IMG/VR virus record: IMGVR_UViG_3300008113_000290
Location: 1 to 27,866 of that record
From: a virus
DNA length: 27,866 nucleotides
Reading direction: 5' to 3' (one strand)
Both the position numbers and the translations under genes were made by a program. A model generated the notes under the pieces. The model saw nothing but the letters and a program-made list of their open reading frames with translations. It made no database searches and had not been told where the DNA came from. Numbering within the stretch: position 1 is the first letter of the stretch; each line of letters opens with the position of its first letter. Positions 7,585-25,295 of this stretch are shown piece by piece.

Positions 7585-7592
7585 TATTTATC
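7585..7592 (-). promoter_or_regulatory. T4-type late promoter motif GATAAATA
   Basis: The motif differs from the T4 late consensus TATAAATA at the first base only. It overlaps the TAA stop of the giant gene. With the usual spacing of T4 late promoters, transcription would start near 7579, about 20 bases before the ATG at 7559. This would allow the small virion protein and the fibres to be expressed without reading the 13.8-kb gene upstream. It is a sequence match only. Confidence 0.5.
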
Positions 7593-10500
7593 GAGGCAAA
7601 CCTGTGGTCTTCTCCGCTATGAATCTTGCAATAGACGTTGAGTTGTCTAACAGTGATGTGCCCTTAGATGCCGTGGTTTCTCCACGATCGTACCAGATCC
7701 TACCTGTTCTTTTGATCACAGTGATCCTAGTACCTGCTGCTAACGGTTCTGTAAGTCTGATGTAGGCAGCTAATCCATCCACTGCAAATTCTGCTTCTAG
7801 CGTTTCATCTGCTGTAGGACTGTAATCTCCGTTGGCTTCAATCCATACATCTATGGGATCTTTACGCAATCTACGACCACCTGCAAACACTTCAATCTGA
7901 TCACAGGCTCCATAAGTATCAGGCACAGTATCCCTGTACCACGAAGTTCTTATACCTTGTGCAGGCACAAAATCCAAGGGTCCAACTAGTAATGAACTAC
8001 CGTCGCTGACGAAATCTGTTCTATCTTGAGTTTCATTATAAGGTAATATTTCTTCGTAGCCTACATCAACTATAACAGTTCCTATAGCATATGTTTCTGC
8101 AATAGCTGTGCCTTGTGATCCTCTGCGCAACTGTGACAATACATTACCAACTTTACTCATGTATTCTATGCGTTCCCCATCAACACTTATGACTCCTGGA
8201 ACATTTCTTGAAGCGATTGGATCAGTTAGCTGTGATCCGTCAGTGACTGTGATAGTAGTGTCGTAGTAGTTGAGAACTGTGGTTAGATACACCTCTGCTC
8301 TAGCAAATCTATTATAGTGATAGACATTAAGCATATCTTTGTGAATTTCAAAAGCACTAGGTGATCGATAAATGTCTGATGAAAATATCACTATCTTGAT
8401 CCGATCACTAAGGGTAGAATCTGCACCTAGATAAACTACATTTCGAGGTATGCTTACATAGAAGTCTTGATCCTGAGTAAGCCGAACTCCATTTTTATAT
8501 ACCCAAACATAACTGGCAGATATAGGAGCTCGAGGCAGTTGGTACTGTAACTTGCCTCCAACAATTTCATCGGATATCATATCCAGTGCAGCATATTCGC
8601 TGAACCATGTAACATTTATTTCTACATTGTTTGTTTCGTTAGTGGTAATCATTGCGACGCTGGAATCTATCACGAGATTGGCGCCAACTATAGAATATTC
8701 TGCCCTGAGATTATTTTCAATTTTGATATCGTCCCCTACTGAGAGTACAGCAGGTGTTATCACCAATTCTTTTGTGGTACCATTATAGGTATAGTCTGTG
8801 ATAAAGGTTTTCAACTGATTATTCACATACACTCTGATATTGCTTGGAAGAATAGCTCCAGAAACTTCAAATGGATCCTGACCTAGAATAAAAGTATTAT
8901 TGATTCCGTCATATTCCGCATAGATTGTATCTGCACCTATGAGGTATTGGCCATCTACTTCTACTAGCATCGAATTAGGTGCTGATCCTCTGGATAGTTC
9001 TACAAATCCTTCAAGATCAAAACTTCGTGTGCTACCCTCAAAATACACCGTTTGAGTATTGACCTGCACCACAGACACTCCCGAACTATCTACATCAGCA
9101 CCAGCTTCTAGACTTATTATTTTTATTACTGCTTCCGCTGGAGGAACTATACTAAATTCTACTAGAGTTTTTCCTGGTACATCAATAACTCCTGTGCTGT
9201 CTATGAAACCAACATCTACAGACTCACCATTGACTGTGACAAATGTCAATGCTGTATCCTCGTAATTAGCGTCTGTAAGGAATAAATTAGTGGCTCCGTC
9301 GGCTACGAACAGATCTGAAGATAATATACCTATTCCGCCGATGCCTATAGAAATAACTTCTATTATTGAATCGCTGATTGGTGCTGTATTAAATATTACC
9401 GTATTTTGTAATAGGTCCAGAGAATAATCTATTCCAAGATATTTTTTAACTTTATTTACATACACGATTACCGATTTATTTTCAATAACACGTTGTCCGA
9501 TGTCAAAGTCAGTAGTGATCCCATTGCCCTTGATAATTTTAGATTGCAGCGCCGCTGATCCTGTAGGTGTTGATTGAAACACTTTGATAGACACGCTGTC
9601 CATGACCTGACCGGGAACATTTTCTTCTGGAGCAGGTACATGGTCAGGTTCAATAAATTTTCCACCTGTTATAGCTATTTCTTCTGCTGTAGTGCCTTTG
9701 GCTGTAACATACACACTGTCTATAGCTGATAAAGTACCACCACTGAGTTTGGTGTCTAGTAGATTATCATCAGTGATAGTAACAGACCCGTCACTTTCTA
9801 TAGGGCGAAAAATCAACGTGTCACCGTCGTGGGTTGAAATATAATCACCAATTTCAATTACTCTATTGACACCGTCACCTATGAATGTAGGCATTTCTGC
9901 ATTGGGATTTACGCTGGTTGACGAATCTACTTGATCGGAATAAGCAGGATCGTCGATTCTTCTGGTCAGCGTTTCTCCTGCAAGTTTAATATAGATATTA
10001 ATCTCTTGTCCCGCTACAGGAGTGTAAGGCAAAGTCACTGTGTTGGTACTGCCGTCGCAGATCACGTAATAGTCGCTGTTGGTTTCAACACTATCCCAGT
10101 TGTCAGTGAACCACGGTAATGCATCCCAACCACCTGTGACATCAAAAGTTGTTCCTTGTATCTGGACCCCACCAAAATCTATTCCGGTCATTAATTGATT
10201 AAGTTCTTTGCCGATCATACCACTAACAGGATTATAAAACCTATCAATTCTGTTTACTGCAGATAATAATTCGATATTTTTTTCATAACTAATTGTAATA
10301 ATGTCACCTACCAACGGTGCAGTATTGAATATGATTTTTCCTCTCAGCAACGAGTAACTATCAGCAAATGAATAGTAGAGATTAAGAGTGTATTCACTAA
10401 TTAATACTAGTTGATTATTTTTTAATATAGTAATTTTAGTTTTGTCTCTAGTAGGAGCATATCCCAGTTCAAACACCGCTGTAGTTCCTGTGGCTGTAAA

Positions 10501-13500
10501 TGTTTGATTCTGTGTATATGATTGATAGTCACCGGTTTTACTCACACGATCAAATTTCACTGTAAGATCAAAAGTTCTAACTTTGGTGTCACCTAACACT
10601 GCTGTAGCTTTGGCCTGTATGCCATCGTTAGAATTTCCTCCAACTAAAGTAACCGTGGGTCGTTGTGTATATCCACTACCGGCGGTCAATATTCTAATAC
10701 CGGATACTTTGCCGTTGGATATGTAGGCCTGAGCCGTGGCTCCTGAGCCGTTGCCTTCTATGACCACTCTAGGAACTGCGGTATAAGTGGTGCCATAATC
10801 ATACAACAGAATATCAGTAACTACATATCCGTTGTTATCCGTCCACCATTTCCAAGGATACTGTGTTAATTCGTTACGTTCAAACGTTATAGGAACTACT
10901 TTACCGTCTGTAACTGAATAGTTGGGAGCAAGATCAAAATCTGCGACAGCTGATTGATAGGGTTCCGGAGTGCTATACCGACTCACATACTCTCTTACCG
11001 TGGTTCTAAAAGGTTTAACCTCATCTATGTATTGTTGATAACTTTCTAGATTATCATTTTTGTAATTTATTTTTTGTTCAAAACTGCCTACAGAGTGTGT
11101 GGCATTTAAGAAACTGGTTTTGAAAACCCAGTCAACATACTGTTGTTCAGATAAGGCGTATCGTATGCTAGAGAAAAACAGTTTGTTCCATTCTATGGTA
11201 TAGTCAGCAATAAAAATATCTTGTTTTACGGCTTGCAAAATGTTTCTTAATTCTGTTGAATTTGAAATATCATAGGTGGTATTATCAAAACTCTGTGTGT
11301 TATCAAATCCTATGCCTGTCACGGTAGTATCATACAATGAAGATTTCAATTGAATCGTTCCGTTTTCTCTAGCTACTAATTTGAATCTATCTGAAAAAGT
11401 TGCACCGGTATCGTTTATTTTTTCAAATATCGCCCACCCGCCGGCACCATATTCTTTGACTCTTATCAGTGTGCCTAACGAAATTTGATATTGTGATTCT
11501 TGAAATACACTTACAATTCCTAGATTTACCTGAGAATTTTGATCGTATCCGGTAAGATACCAATCCACTGTGTTCCAATATTTGGTAGTATCATAGGCCT
11601 GGGATTGGCTGCGGAAAAATACCTTTCGAACATCATCCCAGGCATAGATACTCCAAAAATTATCTATGGTAGAATCATTTTTAACTAAAACTGAAAAATT
11701 TCGTATAGTGATCGACAAGGTTCGATATCGTTTACCTCTGCTTAACACTGTAGCAGTGACCACCCTTCCTTGACCGTCAATCCTACACACCGCGGAGGCG
11801 TTGATTCCATCTCCGTTAATGGTTATCGAAGGTCCCTCATATAGTTGAGGAATCGTACCTAATATTGCCACTTTAGGTTTATATCCAAATCCCGGTTCAA
11901 CGATGTCAACCGTATCAAGTTCACCATCTACTAGATTAGCTCTAAGCACAGCCTGTTTGGTTCTTACTGTACCTACTGTCCGAAGATCAATCTCTGTGTC
12001 CACTATGACGTCGTATAGATTTAATATTTCTGCCGGTACAGTATCTTTAGAATTTAAATTTGTAAAATCTATAAGATCAGCGAACGGTTGAGTAGTTAAT
12101 ACCGTGTTGATATTTGTTATGGCTAATTTTAATGCCATAATTCTATCAACAAATATACTTTGGCGCGGTCTAAAACTTATACCGTATTTTTGTTTAGCAG
12201 ATAATTTTGTATCAGGTACTCTATTGCCTTGAATGTCAGTGCCTATCAAGCTGTCAATCCATTTATTTTCCAGCTGTGCTGTTGGAACGCTGTCAGCAAC
12301 AGATTCTGTTAATAATTGATATTCACTGTGTATTGGTCTTTGAGATTCTAGATCATTTCTATACTTAATGTTAATCAATGCAGTGTCCGACGACATCATT
12401 GATTTTACATTGTATAAAACAAACTTATCAGCTGCTATCAACGCCATAAATGCAGTGCCCGTACCTACAGGATTGGCAATGATGTTAGCTACTTCTGCTG
12501 CCGATCGTGTTCTACCTGGCAGATTTGCAGGCACCACAGTCTTGTTTTCTACCCAATAAAAATAAACTGTTTCTTGTACCTGTCCGGTGGTAGAGTTAAA
12601 AGTTTGTTTTAGACTGTATGCATCGTTATTAGGATATAAAGGTTGGCCGCTGATACCTAATGATAAGCCTTCGTTGGTGTCGGCCACTGCTGCCCACTCA
12701 TTAGGCAACAGCACACTCTGTACCCATTCGTACACTGCAATTTCGCTGCCCTCGACCTGTTGGTTCCAAGTACCTGTTCTAAAAGCAGCATCGCCCTGTT
12801 CTGCATAGATCCATTTTACGGCAGATGTGTTCCACCATAATCTACCAACATTAGATTCATACCAGGCGATGGCAGGATCTGTAATTACTTGATCATTGCC
12901 TATGGTATAAACCGCTGGATCATACGGTGTCTTGAATTTAATTTCTTGTTCTGCTGTGTTTAGTATTTTCCCTTTCGCAGCGTCTATGTAATCGAGATCT
13001 TGTATTTTAACGTTCTGTACATTGTCATATAATTCTATGCTTCTGATTTTTCTTATATCTATCACAGGCTTTTGTGTGCTGAGGATGTTCCAAGAACTTC
13101 GTGCAGGATCTTTTTTGAACAATCTAGCATTGCCTATGTACGGTCCTTCGAAGGCCACACCGCCTACATCATGCAGTACCGGTACCCTATAGTATGGAGA
13201 TCCCACTGCCACATAATGTCCCACACAATCTACGCTGGAACCAAATGCTTCATCAGGAGAAAATACTTCCTGTAGTTTTTCAGTGAGGAAAAATATTTGA
13301 TCTTTTTTGTCAAATATATAAACTCCACCGGTGAAACCTTGCGCAGTGCTGAATCTAGTTGATCTTAGATCAAATGTTGTATCCCGCAGAATATCAAATG
13401 TTATAGGAATGTTGTTCGAAGCATTCTTTGCACCTACGGCAATTTTTGCTGCATCAGGACTCACTGAAACACCAAACCCAAAATACTCATTGGGATATGT

Positions 13501-16500
13501 CTCGAAACTTTCTAGGCGCTGTTTTACCCTGTATTCGGTAGTGGCACTATCTAATCCCAACACATACACGCTGCCTTGGTCCTGATAGTTGATATCTGAT
13601 TTAGGACTAGATACCACCAGTAAGTTTCCAGTCAAATCCATGTCCATGGCAAATCCAAACTGATCTCCAGTGCTGATCACTAGTCCGGAATCTACGTCTG
13701 AGAATGAACTGATAGATGCTGCATTGATCATTTGTTTCAGTTCATAAATGTCACCTTCAGTACGAGCATAGACCCACACCTTGCCACTGGATTGAGTAGT
13801 ACTGTCTCCTACCACCTGCCAGTTGGAGCTGTTTGATGGGTCTTCGTTGTAGCTTCTATATGTGGAGTCTGCTCCTAGAAACGCATCACCTAACCTGTAG
13901 TATTGATAAGAATCTCCGGGTGCTGTGGGATCTTTGAATCTCACTACTTCACCCTCTACGTATTCCACATCACCTCTCCATAGGCCTCGATAATTTACAA
14001 AATACTGTCCGTCTGCATCTGGAGCACCTATGACCAATATGCTGCCGTCTCGATTCATGGTCATACTAGAACCAAATCTGTCACCTTGTTTTACTAATTC
14101 CGCCATCTGTGTATCACTTAACAGTCCTGTGATAGCGAATTCCAAGGTGCTGCCGTCATCCTCTACAGATAATGTAGTTGGCAGAGAACAGTTGGTGCTA
14201 ATGTCACTGACCTTTAACCAACCTTGAGATTCTATAGTAATTGTGCTGCCGTCTGAGGTAGAATCTTCTAGATTCATCCATAGATTTCCCCTCACAGCCT
14301 CTGCTATGGGGTCCTGCGCAGCCTGCCATACGATTTCTCCCGCTTTGTAAGATTCTTGGAAATCGTAAACGCCTTTGTACATGGGATTTTCTAGATGGCT
14401 CCATGCTGTGCCAGAATATTTAAAGAGATATACGCGGCCTGTGTTGTTGTAGGCACCTGTGGCGGATACAGCCATGTAGTATGTGCTGCCGCTGACCGAT
14501 ACAGTTATCTCGCTGCCAAATCTTTCGTTGTCTGCAGGTCTCGGGCTGACTAAAGCAGCGGTGTTGGAAAATCTACCGTTGGCATAGTTATAGACTGCTA
14601 TCATTCCCTGCTGATACAGACCTGTACTGACTCCAGATTCAAGTGCTGGTATGATCGTGGCTAATTCCCAATCATCTGTGTTCACTGCTAGTTCGCTGCT
14701 GCCATCGCCTACCACTGTATTGGCATTTTTGGCTCGGTAAAGTCGGCCGCCGTATATCACAATTTCATCTGGTTGATATAACTGATCTGTTCCCCACGGA
14801 CCGCGGAATGCACTGGCTACACCGCTGGCTTCATCGGCACCTATAATCAGTACCTTACCATCTGGGCTCAGTGACATAGAATTACCAAAAGATCCCAATG
14901 CGGTTGTAAAGAATCCGGTAGGTGGTGAAACTATCTGTTTCAATACCAGTCCTGCAGAACTTTCAGCATACACAGTGACTATACCAGAACCGGGTATGCT
15001 GACTATCAGCTGTTTGTTAACGGTGTCATAAATCACTTTCTTACCCGTATTTACGGGGCTGGTTGTAGCATAATCTGTGATGGCACTGGCCGTATATTGT
15101 TTTTGTTTTTCTATCACTTCCCATAGATCATCACCATTGTTGTCTATGAACAGTCTAGAGTTATTGTACAGCAGTGCAGACGCGCCTCGATCTAAAACCT
15201 GATAATCAGCAAATCTACTATCAGTGAGTATAGTAGGATTGGCCAATGTGCTTTCGTCTAGTTCTGGATCTTCAATGTCGCTACTGACCCCAACACCAAT
15301 CGTGGTATTTGTCACTGTAACAATTTTGAAAAATCCCTGTAGGTTGATTATGTTTCTAAACCCCACATAGGTTTCAACTTCAAATGCATGTGGTCGATTA
15401 AAGGTAACTGTCACTGTGGTGTCATCAAATCTTTCCACCGCAATTACAAATAACATTTCGGATTGATTAGCTCTCAATACCGTCCAAGAATCTTTATCGA
15501 ATGTAACCCATATATGATCATTTTCTCTAACTGTGGAGATATTCAACGTGTTCAATGCTGCTTGAGTAGCTACCACATGTTCATATTGATCTTCATAAAC
15601 ATACCCTGCGGTTAATGTGGGTTCTGTATCTTCAGAGATCGGAGTGATTTCTGCGGTGTAAGGGGTAGGACTAATGGTAAAATCATTAGCTGTGATTCTA
15701 TAATTTTTATCGGTACCTATGACAGTTTCTGAAGACTGGAGTAGAAATAACTGAGGATTTAACTGAAGTTTGTTTTTTTCTATTTGTATTTCTATTTCTC
15801 TAAGCTGGTCAGTGCCCCCCATGCGACCTACTAAGAAGGCCCACTCTTCGTTAAGAGTTACACTGTCGGACCCAGATCGACTGAGTTTGCCAAATATTTT
15901 TGTTATAGCGTTGGCCGATCCTTTTTCACGTATGAATCCTTGATACAGTTGGAACTGACTTACCGGATCTTCAGCTAGGTTGTTTAAATAATCTCTCTGT
16001 TGATATCCTATGGTGTGTCTTGCCAGTGCTCTCTGACTTTGATTAACGCCCTCAGATGATGTTTCAAAATAATCGCTGAACTGTTTGATCTTATAATCAA
16101 AATTGGGTAGTAATTGTTTTTGTGGAGTGGAATCTAATTTGGTCCAGAAAGTGTCATTGAAGATTTCTGTGCCTAGTTGATTTGTTAGACTGGTCCAATT
16201 ATAACTTTTATATGAAACTATATCACCTAATTTGTAATCTGTAAAAGACTGCCAGATCTGTATGTTAACGTTATCAAACAGAAATCCTGGACTAGTGTAA
16301 TCACCATCCCAGTCCACTGTGCGGAATCCCTGTGCTTTAATACGACCCTGTCGATATCCTGTAGTTTTATCATAGATGATGTCGTTGAACACTGTGCGAT
16401 CATTAAATACTGTGACATGTTCTTTGAGAACATAATTTAATTTCAAGAAAAATATACCATCGGTAGTATTAGCCGTTTCTATTGTGATGTTTTGAAAACT

Positions 16501-19500
16501 GCGATTGACATTTATAAATCTTGGTTCTAGAGGTTTGCCATCACCTTTTAATACCTGATAGTCATAGAATCCATCCAATATATTATCAGCTACGCCCACG
16601 GGCACCATAACATCTACCTTTTGTGCAACAGGACTTATTGCAATTAACGATCCTTGTTCCCAGTTATGTTTAGTCCAGAACATGAATTCTTTAGCACTGC
16701 TGAGCCAATCCTGGCTGACTTGATTCTCCGGATCGTATCTATCAAATTTAAATCCAAGACTTTTTAGATAGCTTTCGTAACCTAGTAGAAAATCAACTAC
16801 CTGTTGTACGGTGGTGAACAGTGTGCCGTAACTGATACGTTTTACTGACAGTGTGTTAAATGTGCGTCGGCGAAGTGCTTCTACTGCACCTACTTTAGGA
16901 ATTGTGCTGAGTTTTTGCCATGCTGTGCGATCAAAGGCACCACCACTGTTGTGTGTGCGTAGTGCTCTATAAAAATCATTGAAATATCGTACCAATGTAC
17001 CATTGTTGTAATTTTTATCTGTGGTCCAGTCTAGAAATGTTTCACTAACTCCTCCAACAGATATCAATGGATCTCGCTGGCTGACCAATGCTTGATGATA
17101 TTCAAAATAAGGATGTATGTCGTCATAGCCTGTGGCTATCCATCCGCCTTGTGTTTTTTCAAATATAACTCCGCTGATAGCCACTGTGGCCACTGGAGCA
17201 CCTACATTAAAAATGATATCATAATTTTCTGCAGGCACATATATACTGCTGGTAGTAGCTGAGGGGCTTTTTGAATCCAGTAAGAATTTCTGCTGTTGTT
17301 GATCTACAAACCCACTCATCCTAAAACTCAAGGCAACATCAAGTCTGTTTATTTTTTCTAATATACTGTCTTGAGGAATACCTCTGGATTTTATGTAGGC
17401 CACTATATATTTCAATAAGCCAATGTGTGGATCTGATAATGCAGTTGGAGCAATGTCGCCCAAGGTGCTGAATAAGGAAGTCGTGCTATTCACTGTCTGA
17501 TCTATTATGTTGGTAGTGGTCCTAGAGCGATCAAAATTATCTGTGATGAATTCAAAAGGTTTCATCAGACACATGGCCATTACGACTGCGAACGGCCATT
17601 CTGAACTAGATCTCCAAGCATATTCCACTGGACTGATATCACCCAGCACAAACGGACCTTGATTATTAATCAGTGAAAAATTCTGTGCTAGGCCGCTGTC
17701 CAATGGACTCAACAACACTCCATCGCCATCTGTAGGAATATGATTCAACAACCCTGGACGTTTGTATCTATCGTGACGGCCGGCTCTGGTTCCTTGCCTA
17801 ATATGACCATTCTCTAGATCTTCCCAGAGCAATAGATTGTTGCGTGTGTATGGGGCAGCACCATACTGTGTTTGCCACCAATCAGGTTCTTGTGAAAATC
17901 CCAGCATCTCCCACGGACAACGGTGTGGTCGATCTGTGTCATAGAACCATTGATAGACTCCTCTCCAATACCCGGGCAAAGACTGTGTCTTGGTTGGATC
18001 TGACATTCTAGAATAGGTATAGGTGAAACTATTCTCACTATCAAAATACGTGTTTAAGGTATAATTGATATTGGTATTCTGTATCCATTTTAAAAATTCT
18101 TGATTAACAATATCATCTAACTGTTTCTTGGTATAAAGACCAACATCATAATATCCGCCTAGAATAGCATCAATATCAAAGATCTCAGGATCGTATTCCT
18201 GTTTGATGTTATTGTAGATACGATATTCAAGTTCTAATAATAAATCATCTCTGAAATCACCATAGGCAGCTGTGATACTGCCATCGTGTCCCTGTATAAC
18301 TTCACGAGGTTCCTGATAGGTATCGTCTACGAATTTTCGAGGAGTGTATTTTTTATACAGTCCCATGCTGGTAGGAGTTGGCGGAACATGACTAGTGGCT
18401 GTGGAAATATATTCACGTATTTCTACAACATCATTTTCTTCAAGAGTCACTGTGAGCTGTACAAATCCGAAGGTCGAATTGAATACATAGTCTCTGGCAT
18501 TTAGCAATTGACTGTTGTTGAGATAAACATAAACTGCACGTTTGCTGAGAGTGTTAAGATCAAATTTTTCACTTAATGCAAATGTTTTTATTTCTACATC
18601 TTCTACTGTATAGGTGATGGCTGTATAGGCACCAGCTCCCAACATGTCACTGTCTGCAAATGGACTTACTGCTGTTTTGTTTTTTGCTAGGCCAGTAATA
18701 ACATCGTCGACAAAATCCGGAACACTGTCATTATAAGCAATTTCTAATGCTTTAACAGAAAAATTATTTTTGAAGTCTGTATAGGCTTTTTTAGCATACT
18801 GTATTGATTTAATCACGTTGTGAGTCTTATCACACAGAGTCATTATAGCCAGTGGTGCGATTCCTGAATGTTTAAGGAATCGCTTGGCGTGTTTTTCGTA
18901 TCCAGAAATATCTCGCAGATTACTGACTCCTGGAATAATGCCAATGAGTGCGGAATCAAATTCTACCGCTGAAACAACATGGTCTACTGCTTGTCCTAAT
19001 GTGAATGATGTCAGCTGTGCATTTAACGGATTTTTTTCCAATCCCACAGGTATTTCGTAATAGCCTTGATCAGGATCAAGATCTGTAATAATTTTCAATA
19101 CCACAGTGTCTTTGGCCGACAGTGTGTAAGGAAATACAAATGTGTTCTGTGTTCTGGTATAGGATTCTGTATATTTTACGCCATTAATGTAAACATTTAT
19201 TATCGGATCGGTAGATAACATCGACCATTCTATGGTATTAAATATCAGCGTGTTAGTATCACTGGTAACCAATTGACTGTCGATGATGGGTTGCATGTAT
19301 TCTGCACCTGCTGGTAACCAGCCATTGTCATAGACTCCGTCTGGGTTAAACATGTAATAACCAGTAGATATTTTTACACTTTTAGGTATGCGTATTTCTG
19401 TGTACTCAGCAACATCTAAGTCCCAGTCAAAATTAAATTCTATGTCACCAACGTTGTCAATATTCAAATAGCTGAGACTGAATCCTAATTCAGGATCTAC

Positions 19501-21405
19501 TCTGCCGGATCCCGGTTTGTAACTAATAATTTTTGTACCAGCAAACGTACTGGTGTTGTATTTTTCAATGTCTCCAAAACTAACACCTGCTGAATCAAAT
19601 GCATCAAACAACGGCGCTTGATTTACTGTGGTTTTTGTTTGGCTTGGAACCCAATCTGTGCCGTTGTAGTGGAACATACGGCCACCATTCTTATTACCTC
19701 TGCGCACCAACACTCCTTGCCCCAATACACTGTCACTGTCTTCAGTTTCAACAAGATGTATCTGAGTGGTGTTGATGTGCCTAATAAACGTTACTTTGTA
19801 TATTTTGTTGTTGGTTAATCTATCAGTGTCGGCTGTGGCTAATATTCTAGCACCTTCAAATAAGAATTCTCCATCAACGTTATACCCTGTGCTGCCTTCG
19901 ATACGAGATAGTATATCAGTTGTGTAATCGTCGAGATAATCTACAGTCTGCTTGGCCACTGCACCGTGATTGAATAGCTGTAGATTTGCTGAAAATTCTA
20001 TAATAGGACGCTTGGCTCTAGTGGCTTCTTCAGCAGGAAAATTTTCGCCACGCAAATTAAAAGCAGTTTCTAATACAGTTCGATGGAACCAACGATTGTA
20101 TCGTGACCAAGGATTGGAGTCCGTGCTGTCTCTGGCTATAGTCACATAGTCTTTGAAAGTGGGATAGGCTGTAGCATCATCGAAAGGTTCTGTGTCGAAT
20201 CCTGCGTTGTCAAACAGCACTTCAGGCACAGTGGCAGTCAGCACGGGCACTATGAGATCAGAAAATTTTGTCAATGTTATTGCTTTTCCAACTCCCTCAA
20301 CTAACCATGTTTCTGAAGAGTATTTCTCTGGGATAACAGTGCCCTGGAATTCAACAATCATTCCGTTGGTAAATGTAATGCCGTTGCTGCTGACATATTC
20401 ACTCTTGCCAACGATATCTTTATCTACATTTAGATAGGTGTTGGATTCAATATCAGCTATAATAAATCTACCAAAAGCATCGGGAGTGATCAATCCCTGG
20501 TAATACAATGTGTCAGGAGCATCATAAGGCACCGTGAAAGTTACCGTGCCATTTTCGATGCCGTTGTTGATTACACCTTTTTTGTATTCTAGTGCTGCGC
20601 CGGATGCGGCTGGTTCGAGATATTCCCAATCTTCACTGTCTAAGGTAATAGAACTACCATCTAAAGGATTTATATCACGACGTGCTCTATACAATTTAGA
20701 ATCCGATACTGCAAGGTCTCCTGCACTGTAGCCATAACTGGGTTTAAATATCAAACTTCCTGTATCGTAATTTGTGCGGATACTGAATCCTTCACCGGGC
20801 GCATTAACTTTAAATTTGTAGATCTGTCCTCTATACAATGTTAGCGTTGGATTATTAGTATATGCATCAGGAGTAAACACAAAACTATTTGCAGTTGTAC
20901 TCAACACCACTTTATATGTGCTGCTAACTGTGGCGCTTTGTCCGTACACCGGCACACTAGGTGGGCCATTAGGCACCCAATAATATTCTCGGTAATTAAC
21001 AAATTTGTCCCAGGCGATGGGCGGATTCCAGGTATAGTGTTCTTGGCTAGTGATTTTGTCATCACGTTCATCTGTGTTGCCAAAGAATTTCAGTTGATTT
21101 TTAAAATCGATGTAATCATAAAAATTTTCAATCTTGTTATGGTTTCGATATATCACACCTGGTTCTAATTGATATGCACTTCTCAGCGTGGCATCTGTGT
21201 CTAGGTATAGATCATTGCCGTTGTAGGTTTTACCGAATCTACGACCAATATATCCTGTGACCTTATCTAATAATCCTGGTTGAACCAGCGGATCTACAAC
21301 TCCTGCAAGAAACTTGTCGTTGGCCTCAGTCTGAAAAACTTTAGGCAGAAGTTCTACTGATTTTCTTATAGGTAGCTTACTGAAAGGAAAAAATTTATCT
21401 GACAT
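7588..21405 (-). CDS. Giant modular baseplate/tail structural protein (4605 residues)
   Basis: One open frame of 13.8 kb encodes a protein of roughly half a megadalton. The N-terminus (LPIRKSVELLPKVFQTEAND, VDPLVQPGLLDKVTGYIGRR) and the blocks NQAPLFDAFDS (near residue 600) and DRPHRCPWEMLGFSQEPDWW (around 1160-1177) resemble very large virion proteins of marine T4-like phages, by my recall. Domains seen: cupredoxin-like 173-319; CBM5/12-like modules at 219-264, 1457-1500, 1716-1758, 2203-2250, 2342-2400 and 2475-2533; FG-GAP propeller about 2120-2765; GYxxxP modules around 3175 and 3579; beta-sandwich-like repeats 3633-4575. The start follows the gp6 stop by 2 bases with no clear Shine-Dalgarno site, so coupled translation is likely. 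Its place after gp6 corresponds to gp7/gp8 in T4; that equivalence is untested. A peripheral baseplate or host-contact role is inferred. Confidence 0.9.
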   Translation of the reverse strand: MSDKFFPFSKLPIRKSVELLPKVFQTEANDKFLAGVVDPLVQPGLLDKVTGYIGRRFGKTYNGNDLYLDTDATLRSAYQLEPGVIYRNHNKIENFYDYIDFKNQLKFFGNTDERDDKITSQEHYTWNPPIAWDKFVNYREYYWVPNGPPSVPVYGQSATVSSTYKVVLSTTANSFVFTPDAYTNNPTLTLYRGQIYKFKVNAPGEGFSIRTNYDTGSLIFKPSYGYSAGDLAVSDSKLYRARRDINPLDGSSITLDSEDWEYLEPAASGAALEYKKGVINNGIENGTVTFTVPYDAPDTLYYQGLITPDAFGRFIIADIESNTYLNVDKDIVGKSEYVSSNGITFTNGMIVEFQGTVIPEKYSSETWLVEGVGKAITLTKFSDLIVPVLTATVPEVLFDNAGFDTEPFDDATAYPTFKDYVTIARDSTDSNPWSRYNRWFHRTVLETAFNLRGENFPAEEATRAKRPIIEFSANLQLFNHGAVAKQTVDYLDDYTTDILSRIEGSTGYNVDGEFLFEGARILATADTDRLTNNKIYKVTFIRHINTTQIHLVETEDSDSVLGQGVLVRRGNKNGGRMFHYNGTDWVPSQTKTTVNQAPLFDAFDSAGVSFGDIEKYNTSTFAGTKIISYKPGSGRVDPELGFSLSYLNIDNVGDIEFNFDWDLDVAEYTEIRIPKSVKISTGYYMFNPDGVYDNGWLPAGAEYMQPIIDSQLVTSDTNTLIFNTIEWSMLSTDPIINVYINGVKYTESYTRTQNTFVFPYTLSAKDTVVLKIITDLDPDQGYYEIPVGLEKNPLNAQLTSFTLGQAVDHVVSAVEFDSALIGIIPGVSNLRDISGYEKHAKRFLKHSGIAPLAIMTLCDKTHNVIKSIQYAKKAYTDFKNNFSVKALEIAYNDSVPDFVDDVITGLAKNKTAVSPFADSDMLGAGAYTAITYTVEDVEIKTFALSEKFDLNTLSKRAVYVYLNNSQLLNARDYVFNSTFGFVQLTVTLEENDVVEIREYISTATSHVPPTPTSMGLYKKYTPRKFVDDTYQEPREVIQGHDGSITAAYGDFRDDLLLELEYRIYNNIKQEYDPEIFDIDAILGGYYDVGLYTKKQLDDIVNQEFLKWIQNTNINYTLNTYFDSENSFTYTYSRMSDPTKTQSLPGYWRGVYQWFYDTDRPHRCPWEMLGFSQEPDWWQTQYGAAPYTRNNLLLWEDLENGHIRQGTRAGRHDRYKRPGLLNHIPTDGDGVLLSPLDSGLAQNFSLINNQGPFVLGDISPVEYAWRSSSEWPFAVVMAMCLMKPFEFITDNFDRSRTTTNIIDQTVNSTTSLFSTLGDIAPTALSDPHIGLLKYIVAYIKSRGIPQDSILEKINRLDVALSFRMSGFVDQQQQKFLLDSKSPSATTSSIYVPAENYDIIFNVGAPVATVAISGVIFEKTQGGWIATGYDDIHPYFEYHQALVSQRDPLISVGGVSETFLDWTTDKNYNNGTLVRYFNDFYRALRTHNSGGAFDRTAWQKLSTIPKVGAVEALRRRTFNTLSVKRISYGTLFTTVQQVVDFLLGYESYLKSLGFKFDRYDPENQVSQDWLSSAKEFMFWTKHNWEQGSLIAISPVAQKVDVMVPVGVADNILDGFYDYQVLKGDGKPLEPRFINVNRSFQNITIETANTTDGIFFLKLNYVLKEHVTVFNDRTVFNDIIYDKTTGYRQGRIKAQGFRTVDWDGDYTSPGFLFDNVNIQIWQSFTDYKLGDIVSYKSYNWTSLTNQLGTEIFNDTFWTKLDSTPQKQLLPNFDYKIKQFSDYFETSSEGVNQSQRALARHTIGYQQRDYLNNLAEDPVSQFQLYQGFIREKGSANAITKIFGKLSRSGSDSVTLNEEWAFLVGRMGGTDQLREIEIQIEKNKLQLNPQLFLLQSSETVIGTDKNYRITANDFTISPTPYTAEITPISEDTEPTLTAGYVYEDQYEHVVATQAALNTLNISTVRENDHIWVTFDKDSWTVLRANQSEMLFVIAVERFDDTTVTVTFNRPHAFEVETYVGFRNIINLQGFFKIVTVTNTTIGVGVSSDIEDPELDESTLANPTILTDSRFADYQVLDRGASALLYNNSRLFIDNNGDDLWEVIEKQKQYTASAITDYATTSPVNTGKKVIYDTVNKQLIVSIPGSGIVTVYAESSAGLVLKQIVSPPTGFFTTALGSFGNSMSLSPDGKVLIIGADEASGVASAFRGPWGTDQLYQPDEIVIYGGRLYRAKNANTVVGDGSSELAVNTDDWELATIIPALESGVSTGLYQQGMIAVYNYANGRFSNTAALVSPRPADNERFGSEITVSVSGSTYYMAVSATGAYNNTGRVYLFKYSGTAWSHLENPMYKGVYDFQESYKAGEIVWQAAQDPIAEAVRGNLWMNLEDSTSDGSTITIESQGWLKVSDISTNCSLPTTLSVEDDGSTLEFAITGLLSDTQMAELVKQGDRFGSSMTMNRDGSILVIGAPDADGQYFVNYRGLWRGDVEYVEGEVVRFKDPTAPGDSYQYYRLGDAFLGADSTYRSYNEDPSNSSNWQVVGDSTTQSSGKVWVYARTEGDIYELKQMINAASISSFSDVDSGLVISTGDQFGFAMDMDLTGNLLVVSSPKSDINYQDQGSVYVLGLDSATTEYRVKQRLESFETYPNEYFGFGVSVSPDAAKIAVGAKNASNNIPITFDILRDTTFDLRSTRFSTAQGFTGGVYIFDKKDQIFFLTEKLQEVFSPDEAFGSSVDCVGHYVAVGSPYYRVPVLHDVGGVAFEGPYIGNARLFKKDPARSSWNILSTQKPVIDIRKIRSIELYDNVQNVKIQDLDYIDAAKGKILNTAEQEIKFKTPYDPAVYTIGNDQVITDPAIAWYESNVGRLWWNTSAVKWIYAEQGDAAFRTGTWNQQVEGSEIAVYEWVQSVLLPNEWAAVADTNEGLSLGISGQPLYPNNDAYSLKQTFNSTTGQVQETVYFYWVENKTVVPANLPGRTRSAAEVANIIANPVGTGTAFMALIAADKFVLYNVKSMMSSDTALINIKYRNDLESQRPIHSEYQLLTESVADSVPTAQLENKWIDSLIGTDIQGNRVPDTKLSAKQKYGISFRPRQSIFVDRIMALKLAITNINTVLTTQPFADLIDFTNLNSKDTVPAEILNLYDVIVDTEIDLRTVGTVRTKQAVLRANLVDGELDTVDIVEPGFGYKPKVAILGTIPQLYEGPSITINGDGINASAVCRIDGQGRVVTATVLSRGKRYRTLSITIRNFSVLVKNDSTIDNFWSIYAWDDVRKVFFRSQSQAYDTTKYWNTVDWYLTGYDQNSQVNLGIVSVFQESQYQISLGTLIRVKEYGAGGWAIFEKINDTGATFSDRFKLVARENGTIQLKSSLYDTTVTGIGFDNTQSFDNTTYDISNSTELRNILQAVKQDIFIADYTIEWNKLFFSSIRYALSEQQYVDWVFKTSFLNATHSVGSFEQKINYKNDNLESYQQYIDEVKPFRTTVREYVSRYSTPEPYQSAVADFDLAPNYSVTDGKVVPITFERNELTQYPWKWWTDNNGYVVTDILLYDYGTTYTAVPRVVIEGNGSGATAQAYISNGKVSGIRILTAGSGYTQRPTVTLVGGNSNDGIQAKATAVLGDTKVRTFDLTVKFDRVSKTGDYQSYTQNQTFTATGTTAVFELGYAPTRDKTKITILKNNQLVLISEYTLNLYYSFADSYSLLRGKIIFNTAPLVGDIITISYEKNIELLSAVNRIDRFYNPVSGMIGKELNQLMTGIDFGGVQIQGTTFDVTGGWDALPWFTDNWDSVETNSDYYVICDGSTNTVTLPYTPVAGQEINIYIKLAGETLTRRIDDPAYSDQVDSSTSVNPNAEMPTFIGDGVNRVIEIGDYISTHDGDTLIFRPIESDGSVTITDDNLLDTKLSGGTLSAIDSVYVTAKGTTAEEIAITGGKFIEPDHVPAPEENVPGQVMDSVSIKVFQSTPTGSAALQSKIIKGNGITTDFDIGQRVIENKSVIVYVNKVKKYLGIDYSLDLLQNTVIFNTAPISDSIIEVISIGIGGIGILSSDLFVADGATNLFLTDANYEDTALTFVTVNGESVDVGFIDSTGVIDVPGKTLVEFSIVPPAEAVIKIISLEAGADVDSSGVSVVQVNTQTVYFEGSTRSFDLEGFVELSRGSAPNSMLVEVDGQYLIGADTIYAEYDGINNTFILGQDPFEVSGAILPSNIRVYVNNQLKTFITDYTYNGTTKELVITPAVLSVGDDIKIENNLRAEYSIVGANLVIDSSVAMITTNETNNVEINVTWFSEYAALDMISDEIVGGKLQYQLPRAPISASYVWVYKNGVRLTQDQDFYVSIPRNVVYLGADSTLSDRIKIVIFSSDIYRSPSAFEIHKDMLNVYHYNRFARAEVYLTTVLNYYDTTITVTDGSQLTDPIASRNVPGVISVDGERIEYMSKVGNVLSQLRRGSQGTAIAETYAIGTVIVDVGYEEILPYNETQDRTDFVSDGSSLLVGPLDFVPAQGIRTSWYRDTVPDTYGACDQIEVFAGGRRLRKDPIDVWIEANGDYSPTADETLEAEFAVDGLAAYIRLTEPLAAGTRITVIKRTGRIWYDRGETTASKGTSLLDNSTSIARFIAEKTTGLPR
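7680..10509 (-). repeat. C-terminal array of beta-sandwich-like repeats in the giant protein
   Basis: Residues about 3633-4575 contain successive diverged units of 70-110 residues. The clearest are at 3633-3713, 3953-4025, 4032-4102, 4156-4232, 4266-4345 and 4461-4575. The common pattern is a start like 'G...F.L', then a strand 'V.VYVN..K', then 'DY(T/S/F/Y)', then 'I.F..AP..GD.I.I'. Two isolated units with the same pattern occur near 722-772 and 928-1000 (VYVYLNNSQLLNARDYVF). DNA identity between units is low. Such arrays are common in large phage tail proteins and probably form an extended stalk; no family is assigned with certainty. Confidence 0.65.
10641..11910 (-). repeat. Two Gly-Tyr-rich (GxGYxxxP) modules in the giant protein
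   Basis: Around Y3175 (EPGFGYKPKVAIL) and Y3579 (AGSGYTQRPTVTLVGG) the same short pattern occurs: a strand, then GxGY, two or three residues, P, then TV/KVAI, followed by a Gly-rich turn. The segment before the second copy (YGTTYTAVPRVVIEGNGSGATA, near 3540) is a further, weaker copy. The modules are separated by about 350 residues of unassigned sequence. They look like short beta-hairpin modules of the sort reused in marine phage structural proteins; their function is unknown. Confidence 0.5.
13111..15048 (-). other. FG-GAP-type beta-propeller in the giant protein, with three nested CBM-like modules
   Basis: Six blades begin with an FG at residues 2173, 2296, 2444, 2583, 2642 and 2721, in the pattern FG.S...S.DG..L.IGA, and most are followed by a strand such as GRVYLFKYS, GKVWVYAR, GSVYVLGLD or GGVYIFDK. 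A preceding half-blade (QLIVSIPGSGIVTVYAE, about 2130-2150) could close a seven-bladed ring. The plain spacing is about 59 residues (2583 to 2642). The spacings of 123, 148 and 139 residues are explained by CBM5/12-like modules at 2203-2250, 2342-2400 and 2475-2533. FG-GAP propellers are known in integrin alpha chains and many surface proteins. Binding partners here are unknown. Confidence 0.7.
16132..17037 (-). other. Two further CBM5/12-like modules in the giant protein
   Basis: The modules at residues 1457-1500 (W1460, NNGTLVRYFNDFYRALRTH, W1496) and 1716-1758 (W1718, YKLGDIVSYKSYNWTSL, W1754) follow the CBM5/12 pattern: W, then Y..G.(L/I)V.Y....Y.A/S, then a closing W with a short strand (WQKL, WTKL). 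The closing W lies exactly 36 residues after the first W in both copies. In CBM5/12 domains these aromatic residues form the sugar-binding face, so carbohydrate contact is plausible but not shown. Confidence 0.6.
20449..20889 (-). other. Cupredoxin-like domain without copper ligands, split by a CBM5/12-like module
   Basis: Residues 173-212 (SFVFTPDAYTNNPTLTLYRG, YKFKVNAPGEGFSI) and 276-319 (KGVINNGIENGTVTFTVP, APDTLYYQGLITPDAFGRFI) resemble the two halves of a plastocyanin-type domain. In copper-binding members one expects His in the place of G-E-G-F and Cys-x-x-His...Met after LYY. Here these are Gly/Glu and QGLITPDAFG, so copper binding is unlikely. The residues between (219-264) form a CBM5/12-like module: YSAGDLAVSDSKLYRARR followed by DWEYLE with W260. 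The fold assignment is by pattern and needs a structure prediction. Confidence 0.5.
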
Positions 21406-21407
21406 AA

Positions 21408-24400
21408 TTAATAGGTAGAGGATACCACACTGGATATAGCAGAACCGATTTCAGCTGCTGTGATAGCCGTGACTATTTCAACATCTGCGACTGTGGCTCC
21501 GCTGATTAAGATTTCATCTGATCTGCTCTGAATCTCAAACAGGCTTCCGAATGATTGACTGCTTTGTTTAGGGCATATAACTATATTACTGATATCTGGT
21601 GCAGTGGAATTTAAAATATAAGTGGTAAGTTCGCCCATATAGAACCTATCTCCAAAATCCCAGTTACTGATGTCAAAGAACGCATTTATCGCAGCGATAA
21701 CCCGAACTTTTAAATCGTTGTCATTGATAGCTTGCCCAGGATTTTTAACCACTTTAAATGTGGCCTGTAGTTTGGGATCTGCTTTTGAACCAAACAGCAC
21801 TTTGTATTTCACTGTGTGATAAATGATCTCATCACTGATGGATTTGATGGCTGATAAACTAGTACCAAATGTGGTTCTTAGGCTGTCTGTGCTGGGAGGT
21901 TCTGGTGCAGTTGCAGTACCGCCTGCAAGATAAATCCTATATGATTCATCGTAGGATCTGGTCAATAAAAATATATCAATAATGTTACTAGAACTTGGAT
22001 CTATTCTGCGATTCACACTGGCATTATGAATGTACTGAAATTTAAGATTTCTACGGCCAACATTAGCTCTGTAGGATCTATCGAGATCAAATGTGTTTGT
22101 GGTTCGATTCACTGCTTTTACTGCATCTTCGTCGATAGTGTAAAAATAAATCAATTGACCGTCAGGATATGTTACGGTATCTGTAAAATCAACTATTGAT
22201 TCTTTTTCTCTGATCAATATCAAATCGTCTGAATTGTCCACCAACTGATAAATTGTGGTACCATACTGATCCACAGTTTCTTTAAAGAATAGATAATTTA
22301 GTGCTGTGTCAGCACCAACTATCTGTTCAAATGAATCTGGATTATCTATAACTCCATCGTCGTCACTGTCTTGAAAACTTAATGTTATTTCAGTTGTGCT
22401 TTCATACCCGTCGTCGAATTTAATTGTATCACTGATAACAAAGGCAATATCTTGCCGTAATTCTGAAATGAATCCACTGTCGGTATTAATCCCAAGAACT
22501 TTAACTTGATCCTTGACTACTGAACCTAACTGGTCGTTGTAACGTTTTTCGTTGGTGTCAAAATAAAAGCGATTCTGTGTTACACTGCCAAACACATAAC
22601 TTAGACGTCTGATCCTTACGTTGTATCTATCTGCTTCCTTAACAAATGCCACTAACCATGAACTATCTGCATTAGAATTAGATATATCCCCTGATTTACC
22701 TAGGCTAAAATCGCTGACTAAATTAACATTTGAAGCCGTGATAATTTTCCAAGTAGATGATACTGATTCATATCTTATACCGAAATTTAAATTCTGAGCA
22801 CATTGATTCACTATCTCGGTTTCTAGTGCAGTGTCTAGATCATTGACAAATCGAGGCACTATGCGGTTAGCCACAGCACCAGTAGGCACTACATCACTAA
22901 ATGTCACTGCCCCTAGTCCGCTGGTCAGCACACCTCTGCCTGCATTAGTACCGTCACCTACTACAGACACCACCTTGGTCCAAAGTCTATCACTCTGTTC
23001 AGGATCTTGAGAATTAATAGTTACTAATTTACCTTTTTTAAACGCTTGTCCAGCAGGTGCTGTAAATTTAATTAATGCTCCGCTGAGAAGATATTTCAAA
23101 CTAGAGGTGCTATATATTCCTACTTTAAGCAAAGAGTTGTCAACCACATTCTTAAAATAACCTGTGGGAGTTGCTGTGGTCACACTCTGCCATACTGTGT
23201 TGATATCAGTAAAAAGAATCCGATCAAATTTTGTAAAGTAAAAATTATACACATCGGGGTCTGTGAATTTTGATTCTATGCTTTGTCGGATAAAATTAAT
23301 GACATCAATCCTGCTGTCAAATCTAAATCCCAGTGTTTCTTCACTTTCTTGTTTGTAGATGTATCCGTCGTCGCAGAAAACATTGATGCTGGAATATTTT
23401 CCGCTGGCATCTATGATATCAAAATTTCTACTGATGCCGCTGGATGTTCTATTAATTGATTTTATTTTCACTATGTTCTGACTGCTGCTCAATGGTGCAA
23501 GATTATAGTCTTCAGCAGTGATCATGCGGTTCTGTGTGTAGTAGACTGCAGGAGCATTGGTTCTCACTGAATCTATATCTTCTGTGGCTGCTGAGTTAGC
23601 CACTGTGGATTGTAAAGCCAGTCCCACTGTCAGCGTGTGTTCTACCCCTGATTTATTGAAATAACTGATACCGATATTGATACCCCTGAGTTCATTGGGG
23701 CTGATGGTATATGACAGTCCATTGCTGGTTCTATAAAATACTCTGAAAGGTCCTTGTGGTAAATTACCGTAAACCCCATCAGCAAACACAAGATCCACTG
23801 TATCATTTTCTTTGGTATTAACTGCATATATGTTTCTGATATCTTGTTCTATGCTATTATAGGCTATATTATTGCCTACTAATGTAGATACCTTAACCCA
23901 CTCTTCTAATTGTGCACCTGCGCTGTTTAATGAAAACAGCCATACATCGTCATTATTAATATCAGCAGCATCGATAGCGATTTTTTCGTTAGGTGTCGGA
24001 ACTCCAATGCCAAAATCAGCCAATGCCAACGTGCCTTGTTTAAACAATAGGAAAAATCCTGTATTAGGACTACCGGGACCTGTGCCGTCATTTCTATAAA
24101 CAAATCCCAGTTGGTTGCCGGGAACCGGAGGTTCTTCATAGATGTTTTCGCTGTTTTTAAATGCTGTAGAAACTAATTCAAACAACATGCCTCTGGCTGC
24201 CACAGTTTTACTGAAACTGTAGATGGGCACATCTGTGCTGGTTGTTCTAAATCTATACTGTTCTGTGGGTATGCCTTGTATAGTAGCTGATCCTTGGCTG
24301 CGACCAAATTCTGTGTTATCTGCCATGGCAGAATTTAACACCAGAATGAATTGCTCAAGCCAATTGGTGTTGGTTGGATCATTCCAACTTACAATTTGTT

Positions 24401-24815
24401 GTGCGAGATTTCGACCATTGCTGTCAATGATGTCCTCGGTGGTGGCCACACTGGTAAATTTCAATAGGCCCGAAGCAGCTTGATTTCTCTTGGCATTGTA
24501 GCTCAACATGCGAGCTATACGCAACACGCTTTCTTTGGTTTCGGCCAGTTCGATAAAATTTTCTCTGCTGGCGAGGTCTATGCGGAATGCTAGGCTTTGT
24601 CCTAGAAATGCCACTGCATCTATCAAAGCTAGATATTCTGATGATTCAATGTAGTCGTTGAAATCTTCGGGATAATTTTCCCGAAGATATGTGATAATGA
24701 CCCTGCGCAGATTTTCAAAGTCGTAGCTTTTGAAGTCGGCATTTCTAAATGTCTGATAGATTCTAGTCCAGTCTTGGTTTAGAATTAGATTATTTTGTCT
24801 GCTGGTAGTGGTCAT
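21408..24815 (-). CDS. 6: Baseplate wedge protein, T4 gp6-like (enlarged)
   Basis: This 1135-residue protein is the gp6-type wedge protein, which in T4 dimerises to form the inner baseplate ring around the hub. The N-terminus (NQDWTRIYQTFRNADFKSYD, LRENYPEDFNDYIESSEYLA, LGQSLAFRIDLASRENF) and the C-terminus (FFDISNWDFGDRFYMGELTTY, DISNIVICPK, FGSLFEI, DEILI) show the family pattern at both ends. It is much longer than T4 gp6 (660 residues); the extra length sits in the middle. Residues 816-829 (DSDDDGVIDNPDSF) match a DxDxDGxxD calcium-loop motif as in thrombospondin type 3 repeats. The ATG has AGGGA at 24822-24826, 6 bases upstream. The gene follows gp25 after 42 bases that carry a late promoter motif. 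Confidence 0.92.
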   Translation of the reverse strand: MTTTSRQNNLILNQDWTRIYQTFRNADFKSYDFENLRRVIITYLRENYPEDFNDYIESSEYLALIDAVAFLGQSLAFRIDLASRENFIELAETKESVLRIARMLSYNAKRNQAASGLLKFTSVATTEDIIDSNGRNLAQQIVSWNDPTNTNWLEQFILVLNSAMADNTEFGRSQGSATIQGIPTEQYRFRTTSTDVPIYSFSKTVAARGMLFELVSTAFKNSENIYEEPPVPGNQLGFVYRNDGTGPGSPNTGFFLLFKQGTLALADFGIGVPTPNEKIAIDAADINNDDVWLFSLNSAGAQLEEWVKVSTLVGNNIAYNSIEQDIRNIYAVNTKENDTVDLVFADGVYGNLPQGPFRVFYRTSNGLSYTISPNELRGINIGISYFNKSGVEHTLTVGLALQSTVANSAATEDIDSVRTNAPAVYYTQNRMITAEDYNLAPLSSSQNIVKIKSINRTSSGISRNFDIIDASGKYSSINVFCDDGYIYKQESEETLGFRFDSRIDVINFIRQSIESKFTDPDVYNFYFTKFDRILFTDINTVWQSVTTATPTGYFKNVVDNSLLKVGIYSTSSLKYLLSGALIKFTAPAGQAFKKGKLVTINSQDPEQSDRLWTKVVSVVGDGTNAGRGVLTSGLGAVTFSDVVPTGAVANRIVPRFVNDLDTALETEIVNQCAQNLNFGIRYESVSSTWKIITASNVNLVSDFSLGKSGDISNSNADSSWLVAFVKEADRYNVRIRRLSYVFGSVTQNRFYFDTNEKRYNDQLGSVVKDQVKVLGINTDSGFISELRQDIAFVISDTIKFDDGYESTTEITLSFQDSDDDGVIDNPDSFEQIVGADTALNYLFFKETVDQYGTTIYQLVDNSDDLILIREKESIVDFTDTVTYPDGQLIYFYTIDEDAVKAVNRTTNTFDLDRSYRANVGRRNLKFQYIHNASVNRRIDPSSSNIIDIFLLTRSYDESYRIYLAGGTATAPEPPSTDSLRTTFGTSLSAIKSISDEIIYHTVKYKVLFGSKADPKLQATFKVVKNPGQAINDNDLKVRVIAAINAFFDISNWDFGDRFYMGELTTYILNSTAPDISNIVICPKQSSQSFGSLFEIQSRSDEILISGATVADVEIVTAITAAEIGSAISSVVSSTY

Positions 24816-24857: not shown

Positions 24858-25295
24858 TCATATTATCATATTGTTGGCTTTGTCAAAATCAAAAGTCATT
24901 CTTTCATTTACATTAAATGGAATATACACAATATCGGCTTGTATGCGAATGCCTAGATCTGTGCTGTCCACTATGATTGAGTTCACTGAGATTCTTGGAT
25001 CATAATTTATTATGGCTTCTACGTCTTTGGCAATAATCTGCTTGACGTCTTCTGTGAAATTTTCAAACAGCATGTCCCAGATCACTGTACCAAAGTCTGG
25101 ATTCTCTAATTTCTCACCTTTGCGAATGTAAAAATGGTTAATTAAGTCTTGTTTTACAAGGTCAATGTCATAGAGCCTGTAATTTTTTGAACTCTGTTGA
25201 CTGCTGAAACCTTTGTACAAAAATACGCCTTGACTTTCCGTTGTAACTGCAGTGGTGTTAGCCACGGCCTTTTGATTATATAATTGATTTGCCAT
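24858..25295 (-). CDS. 25: Baseplate wedge protein, T4 gp25-like
   Basis: The 145-residue protein has the GPW/gp25 pattern: LYDIDLVKQDLINHFYIRKG (41-60), then GEKLENPDFGTVIWDMLFE (60-78), then VEAIINYDPRI (92-102) and a beta-rich end (IRIQADIVYIPFNVNERMTF). RKGE.....FGT...LFE is the hallmark of the family. In T4, gp25 (132 residues) sits in the wedge core with gp6 and contacts the sheath initiation site. The first 35 residues are a Thr/Gln-rich extension. The gene starts 2 bases after the gp5 stop with AGGGA at 25305-25309. The order gp5-gp25-gp6 is typical of T4-like phages. Confidence 0.93.
   Translation of the reverse strand: MANQLYNQKAVANTTAVTTESQGVFLYKGFSSQQSSKNYRLYDIDLVKQDLINHFYIRKGEKLENPDFGTVIWDMLFENFTEDVKQIIAKDVEAIINYDPRISVNSIIVDSTDLGIRIQADIVYIPFNVNERMTFDFDKANNMII

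Follow-up and report, generated by a model that had tools for sequence, protein, structure and literature searches.

An FG-GAP propeller with nested CBM5/12-like modules in a giant, putatively baseplate-associated protein of a probable jumbo phage

The giant gene and its neighbors

The window analyzed here is the whole of a 27.9-kb contig (27,866 nucleotides) from an uncultured virus. Read on the minus strand, the gene order is gp5-like, gp25-like, gp6-like, a giant protein of 4605 aa, a small protein, and then tail fiber/collar proteins. The genes that bear on the analysis, with the two conserved cores of the giant protein, are listed below.

25298..26896, minus strand: gp5-like baseplate hub/spike protein
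24858..25295, minus strand: gp25-like baseplate wedge protein (PF04965, E=8e-9)
21408..24815, minus strand: gp6-like baseplate wedge protein (phrog_10646, E=1.4e-285; phrog_219, E=1.7e-20)
7588..21405, minus strand: giant protein, 4605 aa (phrog_10938, "virion structural protein" family, E=5e-302)
15640..21405, minus strand: conserved core I of the giant protein, residues 1-1922 (matches Paride, Phosso, and Atu_ph07 at E<=1e-143)
12073..13092, minus strand: conserved core II of the giant protein, residues 2772-3111

Contigs carrying close relatives of the window reach 280 kb, and the window's virus is therefore probably a jumbo phage. The giant protein belongs to phrog_10938 both by homology over the conserved cores and by its position beside gp6. 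Relatives in this family come from Pseudomonas phages Paride and PA5oct, Klebsiella phage RaK2, Agrobacterium phage Atu_ph07, Sinorhizobium phage Phosso, and Salicola phage SCTP-2, and at least several hundred members were found in viral metagenomes. The giants of all six phages resemble that of the window in their order after gp6 and in having cores I and II.

A first-pass annotation had assigned this protein to the phage baseplate. Because its gene directly follows the gp5-, gp25-, and gp6-like genes and its family is annotated as a virion structural protein, we infer that it is a baseplate-associated virion protein. The assignment gained nothing from T4 gp7, gp8, and gp10, to which profile comparison detected no homology (probabilities of <1%) and with which the giant protein agrees in gene position only. 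That result, along with the PHROGs category of phrog_10938, "head and packaging," would suit a location in another particle structure, such as the neck, a whisker, or a head decoration. Such a location is nevertheless very improbable, given the gene's place right after the three baseplate genes and the retention of the gp6-giant gene pair in Paride, RaK2, and Phosso.

The propeller and its modules

Between the two cores lies a region in which six FG-GAP starts with uneven spacing had been noticed in the sequence. The starts fall at residues 2173, 2296, 2444, 2583, 2642, and 2721 of the giant protein, and the intervals are the same as those claimed (123, 148, 139, 59, and 79 residues). The region and the CBM5/12-like modules of the giant protein, six copies in all, map as follows.

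13090..15045, minus strand: seven-bladed FG-GAP (integrin-type) beta-propeller, residues 2121-2772 (FG-GAP_2, AlphaFold2, and integrin fold matches)
14644..14814, minus strand: CBM5/12-like module M4, residues 2198-2254, in the strand 2-3 loop of blade 2
14191..14388, minus strand: CBM5/12-like module M5, residues 2340-2405, between strand 4 of blade 3 and the start of blade 4
13792..13998, minus strand: CBM5/12-like module M6, residues 2470-2538, in the strand 2-3 loop of blade 4
20614..20754, minus strand: CBM5/12-like module M1, residues 218-264 (no Pfam hit in the window copy; orthologous stretch matched by module profiles in relatives L258, L239, and L243)
16906..17040, minus strand: CBM5/12-like module M2, residues 1456-1500 (E=2.4e-5)
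16120..16260, minus strand: CBM5/12-like module M3, residues 1716-1762 (E=6.4e-4)

The Pfam family FG-GAP_2 (PF14312) matched the giant protein in three stretches (E=3e-14; 53.3 bits against a cut-off of 23), and the generic FG-GAP profile PF01839 found no match in the window. An AlphaFold2 model built from 52 natural homologues (an earlier one, from 12 close relatives, was poor, with a pLDDT of 65) gave the seven-bladed propeller that the annotation had anticipated, with a pLDDT of 81.3 and a pTM of 0.83. The blade strands occupy model residues 25-60, 74-187, 197-238, 348-462, 488-533, 541-611, and 625-666 (add 2099 for giant-protein numbering). Blade 1 lacks the FG motif, and strand 4 of blade 7 is unassigned in the model; an N-terminal strand may close that blade. 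By fold, the PDB entries that match best are headpieces of integrin alpha subunits (9t5z, E=1.7e-11; 9ind, target-normalized TM score 0.61), and viral FG-GAP propellers were matched as well. No full Ca2+-binding DxNGDGxxD motif was found, the strand 1-2 loops reading SPDGK, NRDGS, and DLTGN; since the Ca2+ motif is not carried by every FG-GAP repeat, its absence does not exclude the fold. The predicted structure thus confirmed that residues 2121-2772 form a seven-bladed FG-GAP propeller. At the sequence level, a tblastn search of annotated phages with the propeller, or with only blades 5-7, and a search of PDB sequences with the whole giant protein returned no matches. Among genome contigs, the propeller had only distant matches, in six contigs from bacterial MAGs (E from 2e-9 to 7e-5).

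Each of the three long FG gaps contains a CBM5/12-like stretch, so the proposed architecture of a propeller with three inserts holds. As had been suggested, two of them (M4 and M6) share the named type of blade loop; M5 instead comes after strand 4 of blade 3, so that two kinds of loop are occupied. The CBM5/12-pattern motif is present in M4, M5, and M6 and appeared in 0, 0, and 3, respectively, of 20,000 shuffles of each. Because this motif was composed after the sequences had been seen, relatives provide the better test. Separate CBM5/12 profile searches of the window's own copies, the check that the annotation had proposed, gave little: M4 scored 16.7 bits (E=0.0075), below the cut-off of 26.2, and M5 and M6 had no Pfam hit. 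The orthologue sets, in contrast, matched CBM_5_12 at E<=0.05 in 24 of 27 cases for M4 (best, 1.8e-6), 6 of 19 for M5 (best, 8e-6), and 17 of 22 for M6 (best, 5.6e-6). Profile-profile comparison related M4 to M5 (99.3%) and to M6 (96.8%). Among solved structures, all three matched Cis13 (All3316), from the thylakoid-anchored injection system of Anabaena, and M4 and M6 also matched enzymes with chitin modules; the module profile gave further weak PDB matches near the N termini of phage tail fibers or spikes (9rkv, 8fqc, and 9x3r). By alignment column, a Trp in the GWEP-loop stretch is present in 3 of 61 M4, 0 of 60 M5, and 2 of 61 M6 orthologues; the exposed Trp of this loop, at the position of ChiA1 W687, is the ligand Trp used for chitin. 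In the Pfam search of the window, M2 and M3 outscored the propeller modules. M2 is part of the core common to other jumbo phages, being shared with the window by most of the phrog_10938 giants of Paride/PA5oct, RaK2, SCTP-2, Atu_ph07, and Phosso.

Variation among relatives

Across 66 loci, the length separating core I from core II ranges from 213 to 3063 aa; judged by these sequences, the interval is a hypervariable site, which in the window holds the propeller. No propeller match was found between the cores in RaK2, Paride, SCTP-2, Phosso, or Atu_ph07. Unlike the window, the first three have 213-506 aa at the site, without an FG-GAP propeller, and Atu_ph07 and Phosso have about 1530 aa of other sequence there. 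The comparison indicates that the propeller itself is optional and lineage specific.

Four contigs (L186, L184, L224, and L203) carry 2265-3063 aa between the cores with no match to the propeller profile. In Phosso (L107, PV764938.1, positions 48386-68852), whose phrog_10938 protein has no propeller, two other giant frames of 3702 and 3182 aa contain long FG-GAP_2 arrays; there are also two smaller FG-GAP frames, which brings the matches in the genome to 42 in total.

Where the propeller is present, its modules come and go. The window's propeller has all three. Two relatives (L199 and L226) have a bare propeller at the same site, with module hits only outside it; one (L256) has M4 and M5 without M6; and three (L094, L099, and L150) have M4 and M6 without M5. 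In the blade-sequence tree (midpoint rooting, moderate support), propellers lacking M5 occupy two separate places. M4, M5, and M6 are evidently independent modules, since they are missing one at a time from relatives. Within the window's own clade, the three stay in place even where identity over the region as a whole falls to 58%; most of that clade keeps all of them, and they are not highly variable there. Modules have also been entered by other domains: a domain of ~60 aa lies within M4 of L132 and within M5 and M6 of L161, about 500 aa are inserted within M4 of L243, and L164 has a further domain inside a module.

Other small domains were observed in the same region. The clade of L099 (10001-12103), which lacks M5, carries ~85 unrelated residues inserted ahead of blade 5. 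A domain of ~50-60 residues with the pattern G.TYTI...GTTDW...AG...G..F.A....GTG has entered the propeller loops of relatives and even their modules (M4 of L132, M5 and M6 of L161, and the blade 7 loop of L138), and a stretch resembling it is found at residues ~480-560 of the window's collar protein (4401-6908).

Outside the phrog_10938 protein, other giant proteins of relatives have many CBM_5_12 matches over the curated cut-off. Two relatives, L176 (7004-12490 and 1-6985, minus strand) and L177 (4555-10170 and 1-4521, minus strand), encode two further giants that start with CBM5/12 arrays; many of the array modules keep an HTS motif, and the neighboring genes look like capsid genes. These giants have homologues in cyanophages and pelagiphages, and those of P-SSM2, S-CAM1, and pelagiphage Mosig bear annotations as tail fibers or similar.

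Possible function and comparison with known systems

The domain nesting in this giant virion protein, which is putatively baseplate associated and probably from a jumbo phage, is thus real and has two levels. The outer level is the integrin-type propeller, seated in the hypervariable site between the cores, and the inner level is the small CBM5/12-fold modules plugged into its loops. In integrin-type propellers, the strand 2-3 loops and the loops between blades open on the upper face, which is the site of ligand-binding loops. Since both kinds of loop open there, M4, M5, and M6 are probably grouped on a single face of blades 2-4. The propeller would most likely form a disc, held at the baseplate's edge or on its underside. 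Modules on the disc face may make low-affinity, multivalent contacts with host glycans or other envelope material during adsorption, and gain and loss of modules would tune specificity.

The leading reading, to which we give even odds, is that the propeller and its modules serve as an exchangeable surface-binding platform. Such a role is suggested by an optional, lineage-specific disc that carries exchangeable glycan-module folds and adjoins the baseplate wedge genes. The two further giants with CBM_5_12 arrays, whose homologues are annotated as tail fibers, argue in the same direction, as do the precedents of Alg11 on the AlgoCIS baseplate and of beta-propeller lectins in injection-system fibers. 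The architecture behind the original proposal of a host-recognition platform has stood; the ligand-binding side of that proposal has fared less well, because hardly any M4-M6 orthologue has the exposed GWEP-loop Trp and a structural role is a serious rival. The modules could be spacers or docking elements that brace the propeller or anchor tail proteins and have no ligand role, which we regard as possible but short of probable. Besides the missing Trp, this reading is favored by the recurrence of the fold, as M2 and M3, in the conserved core across phages of unrelated hosts, by the weak matches near the N termini of tail fibers and spikes, and by Cis13, the best PDB relative of M4-M6. In the passages on Cis13 that the analysis covered, the matched stretch appears to be the intermediary domain, between the baseplate-binding N-terminal part and the C-terminal helices, and no sugar role is reported for it there. 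Braces, however, should not vanish singly from an intact propeller, yet M5 and M6 each do, and propellers bare of all three modules exist.

That the modules are not highly variable in most of the window's clade also speaks against a surface-binding platform, and the same conservation down to 58% identity weakens an altogether different view, that they are evolutionary hitchhikers, short domains spreading from loop to loop in giant virion proteins and having little functional effect. Six modules in one protein, arrays elsewhere in relatives' genomes, and the invasion of the same loops, and even of modules, by other small domains (L132, L161, L164, L099, and L243) would fit such spreading, but we consider it improbable. 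A bolder form of the surface-binding platform, in which the baseplate propeller is an exchangeable disc with glycan modules swapped into fixed loops and host specificity evolves in this way, not via tail fiber tips, is speculative and on balance unlikely.

In contractile phages, adhesion is normally sought in tail fibers. The giant protein described here, which takes a wedge position and bears a large integrin-like domain that is lineage specific and fitted with detachable modules, suggests that jumbo phages may have a second place of host contact, one that has received little study. With bare, two-module, and three-module propellers all occurring in nature, function can be tested by comparing them. 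Separately, the elements are known: viral FG-GAP propellers, phage tail proteins with CBM5/12 modules, and contractile baseplates that bear carbohydrate-binding modules. In the part of the literature that our search spanned, their combination at such a site was not found, no paper brought together FG-GAP, baseplate, and phage, and a 2026 review of jumbo phages mentioned neither a propeller nor carbohydrate-binding modules.

One structural parallel is the propeller of integrin alpha subunits, which likewise has seven FG-GAP blades and in leukocyte integrins has an alpha-I domain of the von Willebrand A type nested within it. Identity to the window's propeller is about 10%, and the window has three inserts, which are CBM5/12-like and not of the von Willebrand A type. 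With CBM5/12 domains (the ChiA1 chitin-binding domain and deacetylase DA1), the modules share the pattern W/Y..Y..(G/D/E)(D/E).V.Y...(Y/W).A...W; the central GWEP ligand loop is replaced by a DGST-type turn. Cis13, the closest solved relative, is also part of a contractile baseplate but has a single module, in a small trimeric fiber, and none in a propeller. Among phages, the "hemagglutinin" of Atu_ph07 and H6WG31 of cyanophage S-TIM5 have a predicted FG-GAP propeller fold like that of the window, but they are separate proteins of ~400 aa and are not nested in a giant. The Alg11 spike cage of AlgoCIS has inserted carbohydrate-binding-like modules on a baseplate protein, proposed to aid attachment; unlike those of the window, these are likened to CBM27 and CBM32 folds, and Alg11 has no propeller (PMC8894135). 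Beta-propeller lectins, for their part, occur in the fibers of injection systems (PMC12923769).
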